The notes beneath the pieces were generated by a model. That model was not told the DNA's origin, did not search any database, and saw only the letters and a list, made by a program, of their open reading frames with translations. 64,000 nucleotides of DNA from Ignavibacteriota bacterium (lineage in GTDB: Bacteria; Bacteroidota; Ignavibacteria; UBA10030): assembly GCA_003170475.1 (NCBI GenBank), contig PMZI01000079.1, forward strand, positions 15,191-79,190, read 5' to 3'. Positions 85-25,169 of the stretch are shown piece after piece (the stretch's first letter is position 1; every line of letters starts with the position of its first letter). Both the position numbers and the translations under genes were made by a program.

Positions 85-1647
85 ATGGAATTGTTGATTT
101 TCATACCGATTGTCGTCATTACTGCTGGCTTGACGTTTTACGCCGGTTGGTACCTGAACGCGAAATCGGGTCAGAATAAGATCACGAGTGCCCACGAACG
201 CGCAAAGCGCATACTGGAAGACGCGGAAAAAGACGGAAACACGCTCAAACGGGAAAAGCTGCTGGAGGCCAAGGATGAATGGTACAAGAAGAAGAAAGAG
301 TTCGAGGCCGATGTGCAGTCCAAGAAGAACAAGCATCAGGCCTTCGAAAAACAGCTGATATCCCGTGAAGAAAACGTTGACCGAAAGTTGGACCTTCTGA
401 GCAAGAAAGAGATTGCCCTGCAAGCCGTCGACAAGGATTTGGTCGAAAAACGCAAGAGAATAGAGGAAAAGGACAAAGAGCTTTCGAGGCTCATGGGAGA
501 GGAAAACACCCGGCTGGAGCGCATTTCCGGTATCACGAGGGAAGAGGCCAAGAAACAGCTCAGTGACAATCTGCTTGAAACCGTGAAGGCCGAATCGGCC
601 CAACTCATGAAAGAGGCCCGGGATAAGGCCAAGGAAGAGGCCAAACGAGAAGCCCAAAAGTTCATCATTCAGGCGATCCAAAGGACCGCTGCGGACCATA
701 CCGTTGAATCCACTGTCAGTGTGCTAAATCTTGAGAGCGATGAGATGAAGGGGCGGATCATTGGCCGGGAAGGAAGGAATATCCGGGCGTTTGAAGCTGC
801 TACAGGCGTAGATGTTATAGTAGATGACACACCTGAAGCTGTTATCCTGTCAGGATTTGACCCATTTCGTCGAGAAGTAGCTCGAGTATCTCTGGAGCGC
901 TTAATCGCAGATGGCCGAATTCACCCGGCGAGGATTGAGGAAGTCGTAGAAAAGGTCCGCAAAGAACTCGAGGAAGAAACTGTCAAAACAGGCGAGAATA
1001 CGCTTCTGGAGGTTGGTCTTCATGGCGGACATCCTGAGATCATCAAGCACATTGGAAGGATGAAATATCGCTCAAGCTATGGTCAAAATTTACTTCAACA
1101 TAGCATCGAAGTTTCTTTCCTGAGCGGCATTATGGCCGCCGAGCTTAATCTGGATCCGATGCTGGCCAAGAGAGGTGGATTGCTTCACGATATTGGGAAG
1201 ACTATCGACAGAAGTGTGGAGGGTCCTCACGCGCTCTTGGGATATGAGCTATGCAAGAAGTTCAACGAGCACCCTATAGTCGTGAATGCAGTGGGTTCTC
1301 ACCACGAAGATATCCCGATGGAGCATCCCATCTCCGCGTTGGTTCAAGCAGCCGACGCGATAAGTGGTGCGAGACCAGGGGCGCGCAGGGAATCCGTTGA
1401 AGGTTACGTGAAACGCCTGGAAAAACTGGAGTCCCTCGCAAAATCGTTCAAAGGGGTTGTAAACACATACGCAATCCAGGCCGGGAGGGAGATTCGCGTC
1501 ATCTGCAATCATGAACTTATTGATGATGCGGCTGCCGATCAGTTGTCGCATGAAATCGCCAACAAAATTCAGCAAGAAATGGAATATCCGGGTCAGATCA
1601 AGGTTATGGTGATTCGGGAATTCCGCTCGGTTTCGTTTGCGAAATGA
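85..1647 (+). CDS. rny: Ribonuclease Y
   Basis: Membrane-anchored endoribonuclease that starts mRNA decay. The 520 residues match the usual family length and layout. There is an N-terminal membrane segment (about residues 3-21), a long charged coiled coil (about 25-205), a KH RNA-binding domain with the GRIIGREGRNIR loop (about 215-275) and a C-terminal HD hydrolase domain with the metal-binding LLHDIGK motif (near residue 370) and SHHED. The ATG is preceded by a GAGGAG ribosome site about 5 nt upstream. It leads a short same-strand run with coaE and the aminotransferase. The 84 bases before it are too short to assign. Identification is firm. Confidence 0.96.
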   Translation: MELLIFIPIVVITAGLTFYAGWYLNAKSGQNKITSAHERAKRILEDAEKDGNTLKREKLLEAKDEWYKKKKEFEADVQSKKNKHQAFEKQLISREENVDRKLDLLSKKEIALQAVDKDLVEKRKRIEEKDKELSRLMGEENTRLERISGITREEAKKQLSDNLLETVKAESAQLMKEARDKAKEEAKREAQKFIIQAIQRTAADHTVESTVSVLNLESDEMKGRIIGREGRNIRAFEAATGVDVIVDDTPEAVILSGFDPFRREVARVSLERLIADGRIHPARIEEVVEKVRKELEEETVKTGENTLLEVGLHGGHPEIIKHIGRMKYRSSYGQNLLQHSIEVSFLSGIMAAELNLDPMLAKRGGLLHDIGKTIDRSVEGPHALLGYELCKKFNEHPIVVNAVGSHHEDIPMEHPISALVQAADAISGARPGARRESVEGYVKRLEKLESLAKSFKGVVNTYAIQAGREIRVICNHELIDDAAADQLSHEIANKIQQEMEYPGQIKVMVIREFRSVSFAK

Positions 1648-18767: not shown

Positions 18768-21215
18768 CTATGCAATTTCTGACTCGTCAAGCCAAATGCC
18801 AAATTCTCCTGCCTCCTCTTCAGGAGGGCTTGCCTCTTCCTTGGAGACACTCTTCTTTTTTTGAATATGGATATGCTGGGGATCAAACCCAAAGAGATCC
18901 TCTCCGGCGAATACCTGCTTGAACTCATCCGGTTCGAAGAAAAGATCAAATTTCTTGGAACACTCGTCGAGTCGATCAATGTAATATGCAGTGTTTTCGT
19001 CGGGGAAGTGAGGCTCCCATTCCGCAGCGAGCTTGGCATTTTCGATTATTTTGACGCCTGCGTGTTGCCCAGTGACGTAGTAGGACAGACGATCGCCAGT
19101 TTTCGGACGGAGCCCAGAGCGTCTTGCCACCTCGTAGGCAACGGAAGCCTTTCTTTTCCCCCCGGTAAGTTCCAGATCATACGTTTCTATGGAATCGCGG
19201 ATGGACTCAGTACGACAGAAGTCGGCCACATCCCATCGATGTTGTGAGATGTCCTGGGAGAAAGAAACGTACAGCTCATGGAGACTCTTTACATCCCCCT
19301 GAAGCAAGCAACTGATGCACTGCTGAATGTAGTTCTTCGCGAAGCGCTCCAATGAGCGCGAGATCAGCGAACTTCCCTTGATCGTGAGCCGATCCCGATA
19401 GTCGAGCAAGGCATAGTTCTTCTTTCGGTAGCTCAGAATCTTTTTATAGCGGCCAGCAAGAACGAGATTGATGCCGGGTGGAAGTGCCTGAGAGAGCTTC
19501 TCGACAAACGCGAGTTCCTGTTCTTCACTTCGCACGTTGTCGGGGGGAACGAAATAGAGACCGTCCGTATCGGCTTCGATGACAACTACGTTACGGAGAT
19601 CCAATTCATGGATGATGGAGCGGAGCAGCTCCTGACCAGAAGCGGTCACCCGGTCGGCCTGCTCATAATCGTTGAAGAGACCGCGTGGATAGCCAAGATA
19701 CCCGTAGAATGAATTGACGAGGACCTTGAGAGAGGATTCAAAGGCATCAGCAGCTTGACGTTCACCTTCATCGGTCAATGATTGCACAGCATGCTTCGCG
19801 TCGAGCCGGGTTGTTGTGAGCGATTTTACCAATTGTTGGAATACATCGAGCTGGTCGCTTGATGGCTTGATCTGCAACGAGATCATGATGGAAGGATACA
19901 GCGACTCGATGTCGGCATGAAGGACATTGTCCACAATGCCCGTGACAAAGATGTCGGTATACGCTCCAGTCCTTTGGGAACCAAGCTGAGGTTTCGGGAT
20001 GGAATGTTTCTGTCGGATGTACTCCCGCAGCATCATCAATTCGATCTTGGACGCACTGCCGGCACGGAGGAGAGCATCGAGGGAAAGAGGAACCATCTGT
20101 GCCTGGAAGAGGGGGCTTCGGGTCAGACGTTCACTGATGGACCGAATGTCCCTGCAATCCTGCTCAGCCTGCTGCACGACGAGCTCCGGTTGACTTGCCC
20201 ATGTCGCAGAGATTTTCTCCTGAGGGACATTCTCAGCTTTGGATGTCGTGAGACCGAAGTGCTGAGCAAGAGAGCGAAGCCCGTACTGGTTGAGAGTACG
20301 TTTGGACATGTCATATGTGTGGGCAAGTGATTTTGTGTCGATGAGGTGACGTCCGGGAATCTCGAACATGGTGTTTTCAAGATCAGGCTCGAGCGGATTG
20401 CCTCGCAGCGAAAAGGACTTTATCTCTGCATTGTCCCTCCCAATGTAGAGTTCGACAGAAGTGAGTTCTGCACGGCAGGCGAGGCAGGGGAGAACTCGAT
20501 CGTACAGATCATGCCCCTCGATGATATCCGGGTCCTTCTCCGCCACAAGCGCCACGAATCGCCGCAGAATTTCTTCTTCCTTCAACTTTCGCCCGTCGAG
20601 AACCTCTTCCCATCCGCGATTGTCCGACAACGCGACGACGAGAAGCCGGTCTTCGGATTTGCGTGGATCGTTTTTCTTGCCTGCTTTCGAATGGACTTCG
20701 ATGCTTACCTGGAGGCGGTGGAGGTCGTCGAACGTCATCCCTTTGAAGAGGGTCACACCGGATTGAAGGAGGTACTGAGTGAGAGGGTCAGGCTTCAGAA
20801 ACAGAGGCTCCACTTCCGAATAATGGTTCGCTCTCCGTAAAGCACTCTTGTTGTAGTTCGCGAGGCAGAATCGTACGGCCTCCCAGAGATCACTCCATCG
20901 CAAAAATGCAGAGAGGTAGCGATAGTAGTTCGTTCCGGCAAGTTCTTTGATCCAGAAACGCTTCGGGAAGCCTTCGATGAGACCGGGATGGGAAAGGAAG
21001 AAAAAGGGAAAAAAGTCGACGTCCGAGTGTTGGATCTGTCCGTGTCTCTGCGCAGTTTCACTCGGTTCGGGCGGACGCGTGTAGATGCGAACAGAAGTCT
21101 CACCGAGCTGTTGAACCGCGACGACGCCTTGCAGTTCGCTCTGCCCATAGAGAACCGGATCGATCGGGATCGATCGATCCGGTTTGGCAACATCACTTCT
21201 TGTTCGCTTCGACAT
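18768..21215 (-). CDS. polB: Family B DNA polymerase with degenerate exonuclease site
   Basis: An 815-residue DNA polymerase related to E. coli Pol II. The polymerase site is intact: motif [10 protein letters not shown] (Asp435), motif [10 protein letters not shown] (Lys497) and motif [10 protein letters not shown] (Asp549, Asp551), plus KKNYAL and IKGSSLISR. The 3'-5' exonuclease site is eroded. Exo I reads VSIE, with Ser171 where Asp is needed. Exo II reads GHDLYDRVL, with Val241 for Asp. Exo III reads QAEQDC, keeping Asp353 but losing the Tyr. Proofreading is thus probably absent, suggesting a specialised or translesion role. The start overlaps the slipin gene by 23 nt; a Ser/Glu-rich tail ends the protein. 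Confidence 0.88.
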
Positions 21216-23299: not shown

Positions 23300-23418
23300 G
23301 TGGAGCTCCTCATCATCTCTTTCTATGAATCCTCGCGCGTTTCGAGAGGGAACGCAAGGTCTGTCGAGAATTGTTGGAGCTTACAGTGTGCAACGAAAGA
23401 ATCTATAAGGTCAACGAG

Positions 23419-23505
23419 CGGAGAGAGTGGGATTCGAACCCACGGTACCCTTTCAGGCACACACGCTTTCCAGGCGTGCCAGTTCAGCCACTCCTGCATC
23501 TCTCC
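23419..23505 (-). tRNA. tRNA-Ser(GGA)
   Basis: A type II tRNA on the minus strand. The 7-bp acceptor stem is GGAGAGA / TCTCTCC with discriminator G. The anticodon stem CACGC / GCGTG encloses CTGGAAA, giving anticodon GGA (serine UCC/UCU). There is a long variable arm and a T arm GTGGG-TTCGAAT-CCCAC. The 3' CCA is not encoded. Confidence 0.95.
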
Positions 23506-24136: not shown

Positions 24137-24224
24137 GGAAGGGTGCGAGAGTGGTTGAATCGACCGGTCTCGAAAACCGGAATACCGCGAAGCGGTATCG
24201 AGGGTTCGAATCCCTCCCCTTCCG
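24137..24224 (+). tRNA. tRNA-Ser(CGA)
   Basis: A type II tRNA with acceptor stem GGAAGGG / CCCTTCC and discriminator G. The anticodon stem CCGGT / ACCGG encloses CTCGAAA, giving anticodon CGA (serine UCG). The variable arm is ATACCGCGAAGCGGTAT and the T arm is GAGGG-TTCGAAT-CCCTC. CCA is not encoded. A terminator follows 10 nt downstream. Confidence 0.95.
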
Positions 24225-24234
24225 CATAGCTAAG

Positions 24235-24261
24235 AAGCCGGTCAGCAGATACCGGCTTTTT
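24235..24261 (+). terminator. Terminator of tRNA-Ser(CGA)
   Basis: Stem AAGCCGGT / ACCGGCTT with an 8-nt loop and a run of five T. A near-identical hairpin follows the second, broken tRNA copy. Confidence 0.85.
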
Positions 24262-24329
24262 CAATTTATTCCCGGGCCGAGTCTTTTTGCTGGGAGGCCG
24301 AAATCATTTGGCGGAGAGCGAGAGTGGTT

Positions 24330-24395
24330 TGAGTCAGAGGCTCATCCCCGCCCGCCAAAGTGTTTCACGATTGGCGGGCAGGCGCCTCCGACGGA
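24330..24395. repeat. GC-rich palindromic insert in the D loop
   Basis: Contains the perfect 9-bp inverted repeat GCCCGCCAA / TTGGCGGGC (12-nt loop) and a small CTCCG-A-CGGAG palindrome. TTTGGCGG at 24307 also pairs with CCGCCAAA at 24352. It shares the CCCCGCCCG core with the second insert, suggesting related mobile palindromes. Confidence 0.6.
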
Positions 24396-24446
24396 GAATC
24401 GACCGGTCTCGAAAACCGGAATACCGCGAAGCGGTATCGAGGGTTC

Positions 24447-24492
24447 CCCGCCCGACCGCTCTCAAAGATCAACGTGGGGTCGAGCGGGCGGG
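24447..24492. repeat. 46-nt palindromic insert in the T loop
   Basis: Together with one flanking base on each side, the insert forms the 9-bp inverted repeat CCCCGCCCG / CGGGCGGGG around a 30-nt centre. The flanks rejoin into the exact sequence of the intact tRNA-Ser, so the insertion boundaries are unambiguous to within one base. Confidence 0.7.
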
Positions 24493-24519
24493 GAATCCCT
24501 CCCCTTCCGCAGTAACAAT

Positions 24520-24547
24520 AAGCCGGTCATCGCGTACCGGCTTTTTT
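24520..24547 (+). terminator. Terminator copy after the broken tRNA
   Basis: Stem AAGCCGGT / ACCGGCTT with an 8-nt loop of different sequence from the first copy, then six T. The 165 nt after it hold no supported gene. Confidence 0.8.
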
Positions 24548-24713
24548 GTTTTTCGAACTCTTCTCGTCTCACTTCTTCGATGGTGCTTCAGCGATGCCAA
24601 CGTGGTGGGGGAACATTTCTGGCGCATGAAATGTTTAGAGATTGTAGTCGAATGAGATCGTTCCTTTATTTGGGAAAACGGAGGGAGTATTCGTTGAGGT
24701 GCTGGGCGTTATC

Positions 24714-24773: not shown

Positions 24774-25169
24774 ATGCAAGCCATCGGGACAAAACGAAGT
24801 AGGCAGCGCGAGAAGATCTACCAGGTCCTGAAAAAGACCGTTGCGCATCCAACCGCAGAGTGGGTGTATGAGCAAGTCCGTACTCAAATGCCCCGGGTGT
24901 CACTTGGCACCGTCTATCGAAACCTCCACATCCTCACAGCTCAGGGTAAAATTCAGGAACTCGATTTTGGAGAAGGGCTTCATCGCTACGATGCAACAGT
25001 GAATCAGCACTATCATTTTGTGTGTGAACACTGCGGTATCGTGATGGACCTTGACGTTCCACCTCAGCAAGACCTCCATGATCGAGTACGTGATCTTGTT
25101 CCGGGCAAGGTCACGGGGCATCGCCTCGACTTTTTCGGGGTATGTACTGCTTGTCTGAGCAAAAGCTGA
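24774..25169 (+). CDS. perR: Fur-family regulator, PerR-like peroxide sensor
   Basis: A 131-residue Fur-superfamily repressor with a winged-helix N-terminal half (RVSLGTVYRNLHIL recognition region) and a metal-binding dimer domain. Compared with Bacillus PerR recalled from memory, every key residue falls at a constant offset of 12: regulatory-site His25, Asp73, His79, His81 and Asp92, and the zinc cysteines Cys84, Cys87, Cys124 and Cys127. The aspartate at 92, rather than Glu, favours PerR over Fur. Two peroxiredoxin genes directly downstream support a peroxide-sensing role. A consensus promoter with a palindrome over the start site suggests autoregulation. Confidence 0.85.
   Translation: MQAIGTKRSRQREKIYQVLKKTVAHPTAEWVYEQVRTQMPRVSLGTVYRNLHILTAQGKIQELDFGEGLHRYDATVNQHYHFVCEHCGIVMDLDVPPQQDLHDRVRDLVPGKVTGHRLDFFGVCTACLSKS

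Follow-up and report, generated by a model that had tools for sequence, protein, structure and literature searches.

The second copy of tRNA-Ser(CGA) in this 64,000-nucleotide stretch of DNA (the window) is, on balance, probably an ORF-less relic or a non-autonomous version of a free-standing GIY-YIG element of the homing type that nests in tRNA genes. Such elements recur with a common architecture and fixed insertion points, their ORF is under purifying selection, and related species differ in whether an element is present. Judged by its predicted domain, the gene that accompanies the hairpins is a GIY-YIG nuclease nested in tRNA genes. Apparently, the elements form an undescribed family of mobile genes that spans several bacterial phyla; no prior description of this element or its architecture was found in the open-access literature, which agrees with an earlier note on this DNA that the inserts match no recognized element. 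As the window's copy has no ORF, its membership in the family rests on its anatomy.

The window is part of contig C10 of a draft genome (4.08 Mb in 85 contigs) and contains the following features.

23418..23505, minus strand: tRNA-Ser(GGA), unoccupied in the window (ARAGORN)
24137..24225, plus strand: intact tRNA-Ser(CGA), the working copy (ARAGORN; Rfam RF00005, 56.7 bits)
24236..24262, plus strand: terminator-like hairpin 3′ of the intact copy (sequence; repeated at 24521-24547, repeat family D2)
24310..24510, plus strand: broken second tRNA-Ser(CGA) with D-loop and T-loop hairpins and without ORF (direct repeats; alignment)
24330..24395, plus strand: D-loop insert of 66 nt, a two-hairpin unit (GAGTC AGA GGCTC AT C..CGCCTCCGACGGA) with a nested hairpin (alignment)
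24347..24382, plus strand: hairpin CCCGCCCGCC..GGCGGGCAGG nested in the D-loop insert (sequence compared with L060 and L054)
24447..24492, plus strand: T-loop hairpin of 46 nt, CCCGCCC-GACC-GCTC..GGTC-GAGC-GGGCGGG, between tRNA C56 and R57 (sequence; junctions)
24521..24547, plus strand: terminator-like hairpin 3′ of the broken copy (sequence; direct repeat)
24774..25169, plus strand: Fur-family gene, the synteny anchor (Pfam PF01475; tblastn)

The two tRNA-Ser(CGA) copies are separated by 85 nt, and their alignment (score 134, compared to 16 for the control) places two insertions in the second copy, after tRNA positions 20 and 71. The data support the earlier note's description of a duplicated tRNA whose second copy is split in the D-loop and T-loop, including the exact position of the 46-nt insert at TTC/GAAT; the junction is GGTTC/GAATCC, and target duplication is absent. 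The two inserts do not share the same start, as had been claimed, because the D-loop insert begins with TGAGTC and is not a simple CCCCGCCCG element. The note had also taken identical flanks as a sign of recent insertion. The tRNA body (51 nt, 24396-24446) and the 3′ end are indeed 100% identical between the copies, but the 5′ ends share 72% and the terminator regions 81% identity. Recency is therefore doubtful, since the flanks have diverged and gene conversion would account equally well for the identity of the body. Chance palindromes at the broken copy were ruled out, as the shuffled-window expectation for the CCCGCCCG..CGGGCGGG pattern is 0.00. An assembly error at the second locus, which the note had allowed for, was likewise ruled out because the same arrangement recurs across many genomes, isolates included. 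Elsewhere in the window, a family B DNA polymerase (18768-21215, minus strand; PF00136, 1.5e-26) is encoded, which is unusual among most bacteria.

The second locus might instead yield a functional RNA, or a tRNA with introns, from which the hairpins are excised or in which they serve a purpose. Its tRNA body is identical to that of the intact copy, both copies are followed by terminators, and the folded broken copy is stable (z = −5). Against this, its acceptor stem no longer matches, neither ARAGORN nor Rfam calls a tRNA there, most comparable broken copies are truncated fragments and sister species have a single tRNA at the locus. We regard a functional second locus as very improbable.

Short palindromes inserted precisely into tRNA copies, as the earlier note described them, are recurrent, and the search for further copies in the genome and its relatives returned numerous ones. 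The T-loop pattern GTTCCCCGCCCN{10,40}GGCGGGRANTCC occurs in 13 copies in 7 of 32 genomes of the family, while the reversed control gave 0. All 13 are located in the T-loops of broken tRNAs (Ser(CGA), Ser(GCT), Arg(ACG), Arg(TCG), Gly, Thr, Trp and Leu), and three of them (Ser, Arg and Thr) are in the window's own genome. Across 395 genomes spanning the phylum, matches were confined to the window's own family, so the exact form of the 46-nt hairpin is local, while other forms occur elsewhere. Over all loci, the 22 distinct T-loop junctions each read GGTTC/RANTCC, a count to be read with the search pattern's own demand for TTC and RANTCC. The second hairpin type (type II) is a 30-nt double hairpin. 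This 30-nt form, with no nested hairpin, occupies the same tRNA position as the window's D-loop insert in the related genome G001 (L013/L060) and also the T-loop of tRNA-Ser(GGA) in G002.

We characterized the gene that accompanies these hairpins in the window's own genome, where searches (the source of all figures for this genome) found PF01541 at 13 sites; small ORFs account for 11 of these. Among the 11 small GIY-YIG loci, five are nested in tRNA genes (Gln, Asn, Arg twice and Ser), and each of the five is accompanied by a hairpin-bearing broken copy or fragment of its tRNA. A scan of GTDB by protein patterns only, derived from the Arg-linked set A2 because another alignment (A1) proved too divergent for scanning, retained 79 loci. 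Of these, 76 have a tRNA no more than 500 bp away, invariably on the strand of the gene (76/76), compared to an expected tRNA-proximal share of 1–2% (from our estimate of ~45 tRNAs per 4 Mb). The hosts are Bacteroidota (62 loci), Ignavibacteriota (8), Planctomycetota (3), Verrucomicrobiota (2), Calditrichota (1) and Daviesiibacteriota (1), with 2 unresolved; no tRNA was found at the two Verrucomicrobiota loci. Phage and plasmid collections returned no protein match. IMG/VR contained 5 loci, of which L201, L203 and L204 are tRNA-linked; these virus-collection contigs have the same tRNA-linked GIY-YIG layout, and L201 has the D-loop hairpin CCTGCCTGCCGGCAGGCAGG.

The tRNA-linked proteins are ~80–100 aa long and match PF01541 with E-values from 1e-10 to 6e-17, carrying the GIY-YIG catalytic domain that the window's ORF-less copy lacks. 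Most belong to one sequence type (HNxG..ST[KR]) with invariant motif residues. The GIY-YIG domain alone spans them, and the solved structures closest to them are those of UPF0213 and of SLX1, a structure-specific nuclease. The ratio dN/dS is 0.08–0.30 in nine usable pairs (the pair of the own genome and G005, which was mis-framed, was left out). On the GIY-YIG tree, which has 79 columns and is poorly resolved, the tRNA isotype changes 20 times, compared to at least 30 times when isotypes are shuffled within host class. Purifying selection and a tree that tracks the isotype together fit an enzyme that specifically targets tRNA genes.

A full element consists of an ORF of ~80 codons, encoding only the GIY-YIG domain, and a piece of the target tRNA. 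Beyond the ORF, a partial copy of the same tRNA was found at 60 of the 76 loci, compared to 3 of 76 for reversed flanks (score of at least 24); at a score of at least 34, the counts are 48 and 0. The intact tRNA is downstream of the ORF in 54 loci and upstream in 22, giving two layouts: either a 5′ fragment of the tRNA, bearing a D-loop hairpin, is followed by the GIY-YIG gene and the intact tRNA (layout A), or the intact tRNA is followed by the GIY-YIG gene and a 3′ fragment bearing a T-loop hairpin (layout B). The layout predicts the hairpin's position (D-loop 21 and T-loop 3 in layout A, 2 and 7 in layout B; Fisher p = 8e-4, which is optimistic because related loci are not independent). In layout A, the D-loop hairpin is inserted immediately 5′ of the 3′ strand of the D-stem (..GGMTA/GAGC), and in 44 of the 54 loci the ORF's stop is a TAG within the tRNA, so that the gene and the tRNA are fused. 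The proposal that the ORF's stop is also the hairpin site failed locus by locus (in L144, the stop is at tRNA position 8 and the hairpin after position 22). Units also occur in tandem (L064, L165 and L148). In a Chitinophagaceae genome, L185 is a broken tRNA-Arg with both D-loop and T-loop hairpins, to which the window's copy is similar, except that it has no ORF.

The duplicated tRNA fragment resembles the attL/attR ends of a conventional tRNA-integrating island with a tyrosine integrase, and elements that use a tRNA as attB likewise restore an intact tRNA and leave a tRNA fragment at the far end. Here, the units measure 0.3–0.5 kb and their sole ORF is GIY-YIG. In the loci read in detail, no integrase gene lies between the tRNA copies, where only the GIY-YIG ORF fits, and none is needed; moreover, hairpins at fixed loop points, including the loop at the junction, are not an att feature. 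A remnant of such an island is hence the explanation to which we give the least credence.

Occupation of tRNA loci varies between related species. Across the genus, Fur is 76–87% identical and the tRNA-Ser(CGA)-fur synteny is kept (tblastn, L008-L011 and L013; alignment to G003). In G002, G003, G004 and G005 the orthologous locus is empty, with a single tRNA and no partial copy on either side (the upstream search in G003 covered 155 bp only), and the distance from tRNA to fur is ~270 bp in G003 compared to ~550 bp in the window's genome. The locus holds a hairpin copy in the window's own genome (G000) and a GIY-YIG insertion in G001, where a 5′ tRNA fragment with a D-loop two-hairpin unit is followed by a GIY-YIG ORF and the intact tRNA. 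In G002 (L011), the tRNA-Ser(GGA) locus is occupied: a broken copy, nearly complete and with the 30-nt two-hairpin unit in its T-loop, is accompanied by a GIY-YIG ORF and an intact copy. A free-standing homing gene is expected at or near its target, with alleles in relatives that are without it; correspondingly, 76 of the 79 genes are tRNA-linked, and tRNA-Ser loci exist in occupied and empty states within one genus.

The closest known system is SegB of phages T4 and T6, a free-standing GIY-YIG homing endonuclease of the tRNA region (PMC2988022). In phage T6, SegB cuts within tRNA genes at the motif RAWTSGAAC, the 3′ end of segB shares microhomology with the 5′ end of a tRNA, and the enzyme drives tandem amplification of tRNA plus segB; that study concerns phages only and does not mention hairpins or palindromes (PMC13096335). 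By our own comparison, the hairpins split the T-loop directly after GTTC, within a sequence that is the motif's reverse complement, GTTCSAWTY, and at this sequence level the T-loop insertion point is SegB's preferred cut site. The present elements thus share with SegB a tRNA-adjacent GIY-YIG gene, the T-arm motif, microhomology linking the 3′ end of the gene to the 5′ end of a tRNA, and tandem arrays of tRNA and nuclease gene. They differ in that the loci are mostly on bacterial chromosomes, the protein has ~80 aa and the GIY-YIG domain only, and the gene is nested in a tRNA whose intact copy is regenerated, while the broken copy is hairpin-split at the D-loop or T-loop. GIY-YIG homing enzymes have a separate C-terminal DNA-binding region, which is absent from the tRNA-linked proteins; consequently, we say that the element works like, and not that it is, a SegB-type element.

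We favour a mechanism of homing with tRNA regeneration, in which the hairpin would block the target in the leftover copy. The nuclease would cut an unoccupied tRNA gene within its conserved D-arm or T-arm sequence, and the break would be repaired from a donor locus, with the duplicated tRNA parts providing homology on both sides. The gene would enter through this copying and one complete tRNA would be restored, which would let the host survive. In the leftover copy, the hairpin would split the nuclease's own target and may thereby protect it. Unequal recombination between tRNA copies could then generate tandem arrays or ORF-less solo copies like that of the window. It counts against homing that the intact tRNA of each element retains unsplit T-arm and D-arm sequences, so that self-cleavage would have to be limited in some other way. 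The small size of the proteins, which lack a separate DNA-binding domain of the kind SegB has, and the similar hairpins outside tRNAs also weigh against it.

The hairpins themselves have an unusual design. Type I hairpins follow the form CCCGCCC-X-Y-loop-x′-y′-GGGCGGG, where the inner blocks are complementary and their order is swapped. Among 32 distinct hairpins, none has plain pairing at 8 of 8 positions (the best has 6), while 23 of 32 pair at 8 or more positions in a swapped register; as the three registers were picked after viewing the data, this block-swap rule describes the set and does not amount to a formal test. Folded as DNA, three type I hairpins form a GC stem with a one-sided bulge of 4–5 nt. 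Such hairpins are also found outside tRNAs, in the own genome (L002-L006), where the insertion point is GAGTC/GAAGG, and in Scalindua (L209, L212-L213 and L215-L219), where it follows GGCTA; hence, the hairpins are not solely part of the tRNA element. In Candidatus Scalindua, the type I hairpins of L209, L213, L215, L218 and L219 lie within a dispersed GCAACCTAAAGGATGC repeat, inserted after GGCTA or GACTA.

These properties bear on our main rival explanation, whereby the GIY-YIG protein acts directly on the hairpins, as a RAYT does. The hairpins would be the mobile unit, and the protein a mobilizer that nicks single-stranded DNA at hairpin tips, whether of tRNA arms or of other palindromes, and places bulged hairpins there without duplicating the target; the tRNA copies would be surviving landing sites. 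The one-sided bulge and the off-tRNA insertions at similar points suit this explanation, as does the presence of SLX1 among the nearest solved relatives. The 32-nt element CCCGCCCGTACCGAACGGTACGTTCGGGCGGG is present, as such or as its exact reverse complement, at differing loop positions in a planctomycete tRNA-Val and in flavobacterial tRNA-Arg and tRNA-Ala, a distribution suggesting that the element has passed from phylum to phylum and inserts in either orientation. In L113, a single broken tRNA-Arg carries hairpins in its D-, anticodon and T-loops. Nevertheless, mobile hairpins alone leave the regenerated tRNA, the isotype-specific clades and the rule that ties the D-loop or T-loop to the side of the ORF unexplained, and we know of no GIY-YIG transposase. 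Overall, we consider the direct action on hairpins unlikely, while giving it more weight than the other rivals.

Alternatively, independent palindromes resembling those of REP/RAYT systems, and mobilized by a Y1 transposase or another enzyme, could gather in redundant, tandem-duplicated tRNAs, with the GIY-YIG genes as separate passengers. Y1_Tnp (PF01797) genes are present in 6 of 6 genomes of the genus, and several broken tRNA copies, including the window's, carry hairpins and no GIY-YIG ORF. However, none of these hairpins occurs within ~1.7 kb around the own genome's two Y1_Tnp loci, one of which is flanked by a palindrome of another family, TTGCCCCGCCCTTAAGGGCGGGGCAA. Where a GIY-YIG ORF exists, the hairpin is in the ORF-adjacent piece of the tRNA and its position is predicted by the layout. 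Among nine other Y1_Tnp loci checked in relatives, two lone hairpins were found. We judge such independent palindromes to be improbable. In the genus, the Y1_Tnp (RAYT-like) genes L226 and L231 are flanked by their own palindrome, also TTGCCCCGCCCTTAAGGGCGGGGCAA.

The kinship with REP-like families that the earlier note suggested is consequently not borne out, as the companion gene is a GIY-YIG nuclease. The likeness to REP/RAYT (TnpA-REP) systems extends to short, GC-rich, imperfect and bulged hairpins, the lack of target duplication and a small nuclease gene; the difference is a GIY-YIG partner in place of a Y1 transposase, and a target that is a fixed point in a tRNA loop. Rickettsia palindromic elements also insert palindromes into genes, but they are longer and occupy protein genes, and we know of neither a tRNA-loop target nor a GIY-YIG partner for them. 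In this respect they may be compared with a 30-nt two-hairpin unit (type II) that lies in-frame in a P-loop ATPase-like ORF of the own genome (L228, ~310-335, minus strand, contig C39) and encodes the peptide GASASGG. Group I introns with homing endonucleases similarly place a nuclease gene inside bacterial tRNA genes, whereas here there is no intron or splicing and a second, intact tRNA copy keeps the function. Rfam matched no intron family between 23300 and 24700.

Other subclasses of GIY-YIG genes, not linked to tRNAs, lie within other dispersed palindromes in the own genome and the genus (L069, L072, L076, L082, L083 and L084). These palindromes are GTCATTCCCG..CGGGAATCCAG for the ASKRNGTLY type and CCTGAGCG..GTCGAAGG for the ARRPVKLVW type. 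The arrangement hints at a general link between GIY-YIG genes and palindromes.

There is a real chance that the element is a class of its own, outside the SegB-type homing elements. Tentatively, we can picture a distinct class of cellular mobile element in which a minimal GIY-YIG nuclease, together with its own bulged hairpins (arms CCCGCCC-X-Y / CCCGCCC-Y-X), would recognize tRNA arms, carry its gene and the hairpins from one tRNA gene or phylum to another, and regenerate the tRNA. It would be a GIY-YIG counterpart to RAYT/REP, with the ORF-less hairpin copies as its non-autonomous form; we hold this version possible, and weaker than the homing-type reading with which we began.

Small tRNA-linked GIY-YIG genes span Bacteroidota, Ignavibacteriota, Planctomycetota, Calditrichota and Patescibacteria, and we found no role assigned to them. 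Their architecture suggests one, as homing-type elements that parasitize tRNA genes while providing an extra tRNA. The same architecture also accounts for an annotation artefact, in which the C-terminus of a protein is tRNA sequence read as codons (e.g. APVAQLDRASAYGAEG in L109). The homing reading, if right, fixes the predicted cut site to a single base, which makes a clean test possible. If true, it would mean that tRNA homing of the SegB type operates on bacterial chromosomes as well as in phages, explain many hairpin-split tRNA pseudogenes and bring a second class of nuclease into the biology of palindromic repeats.
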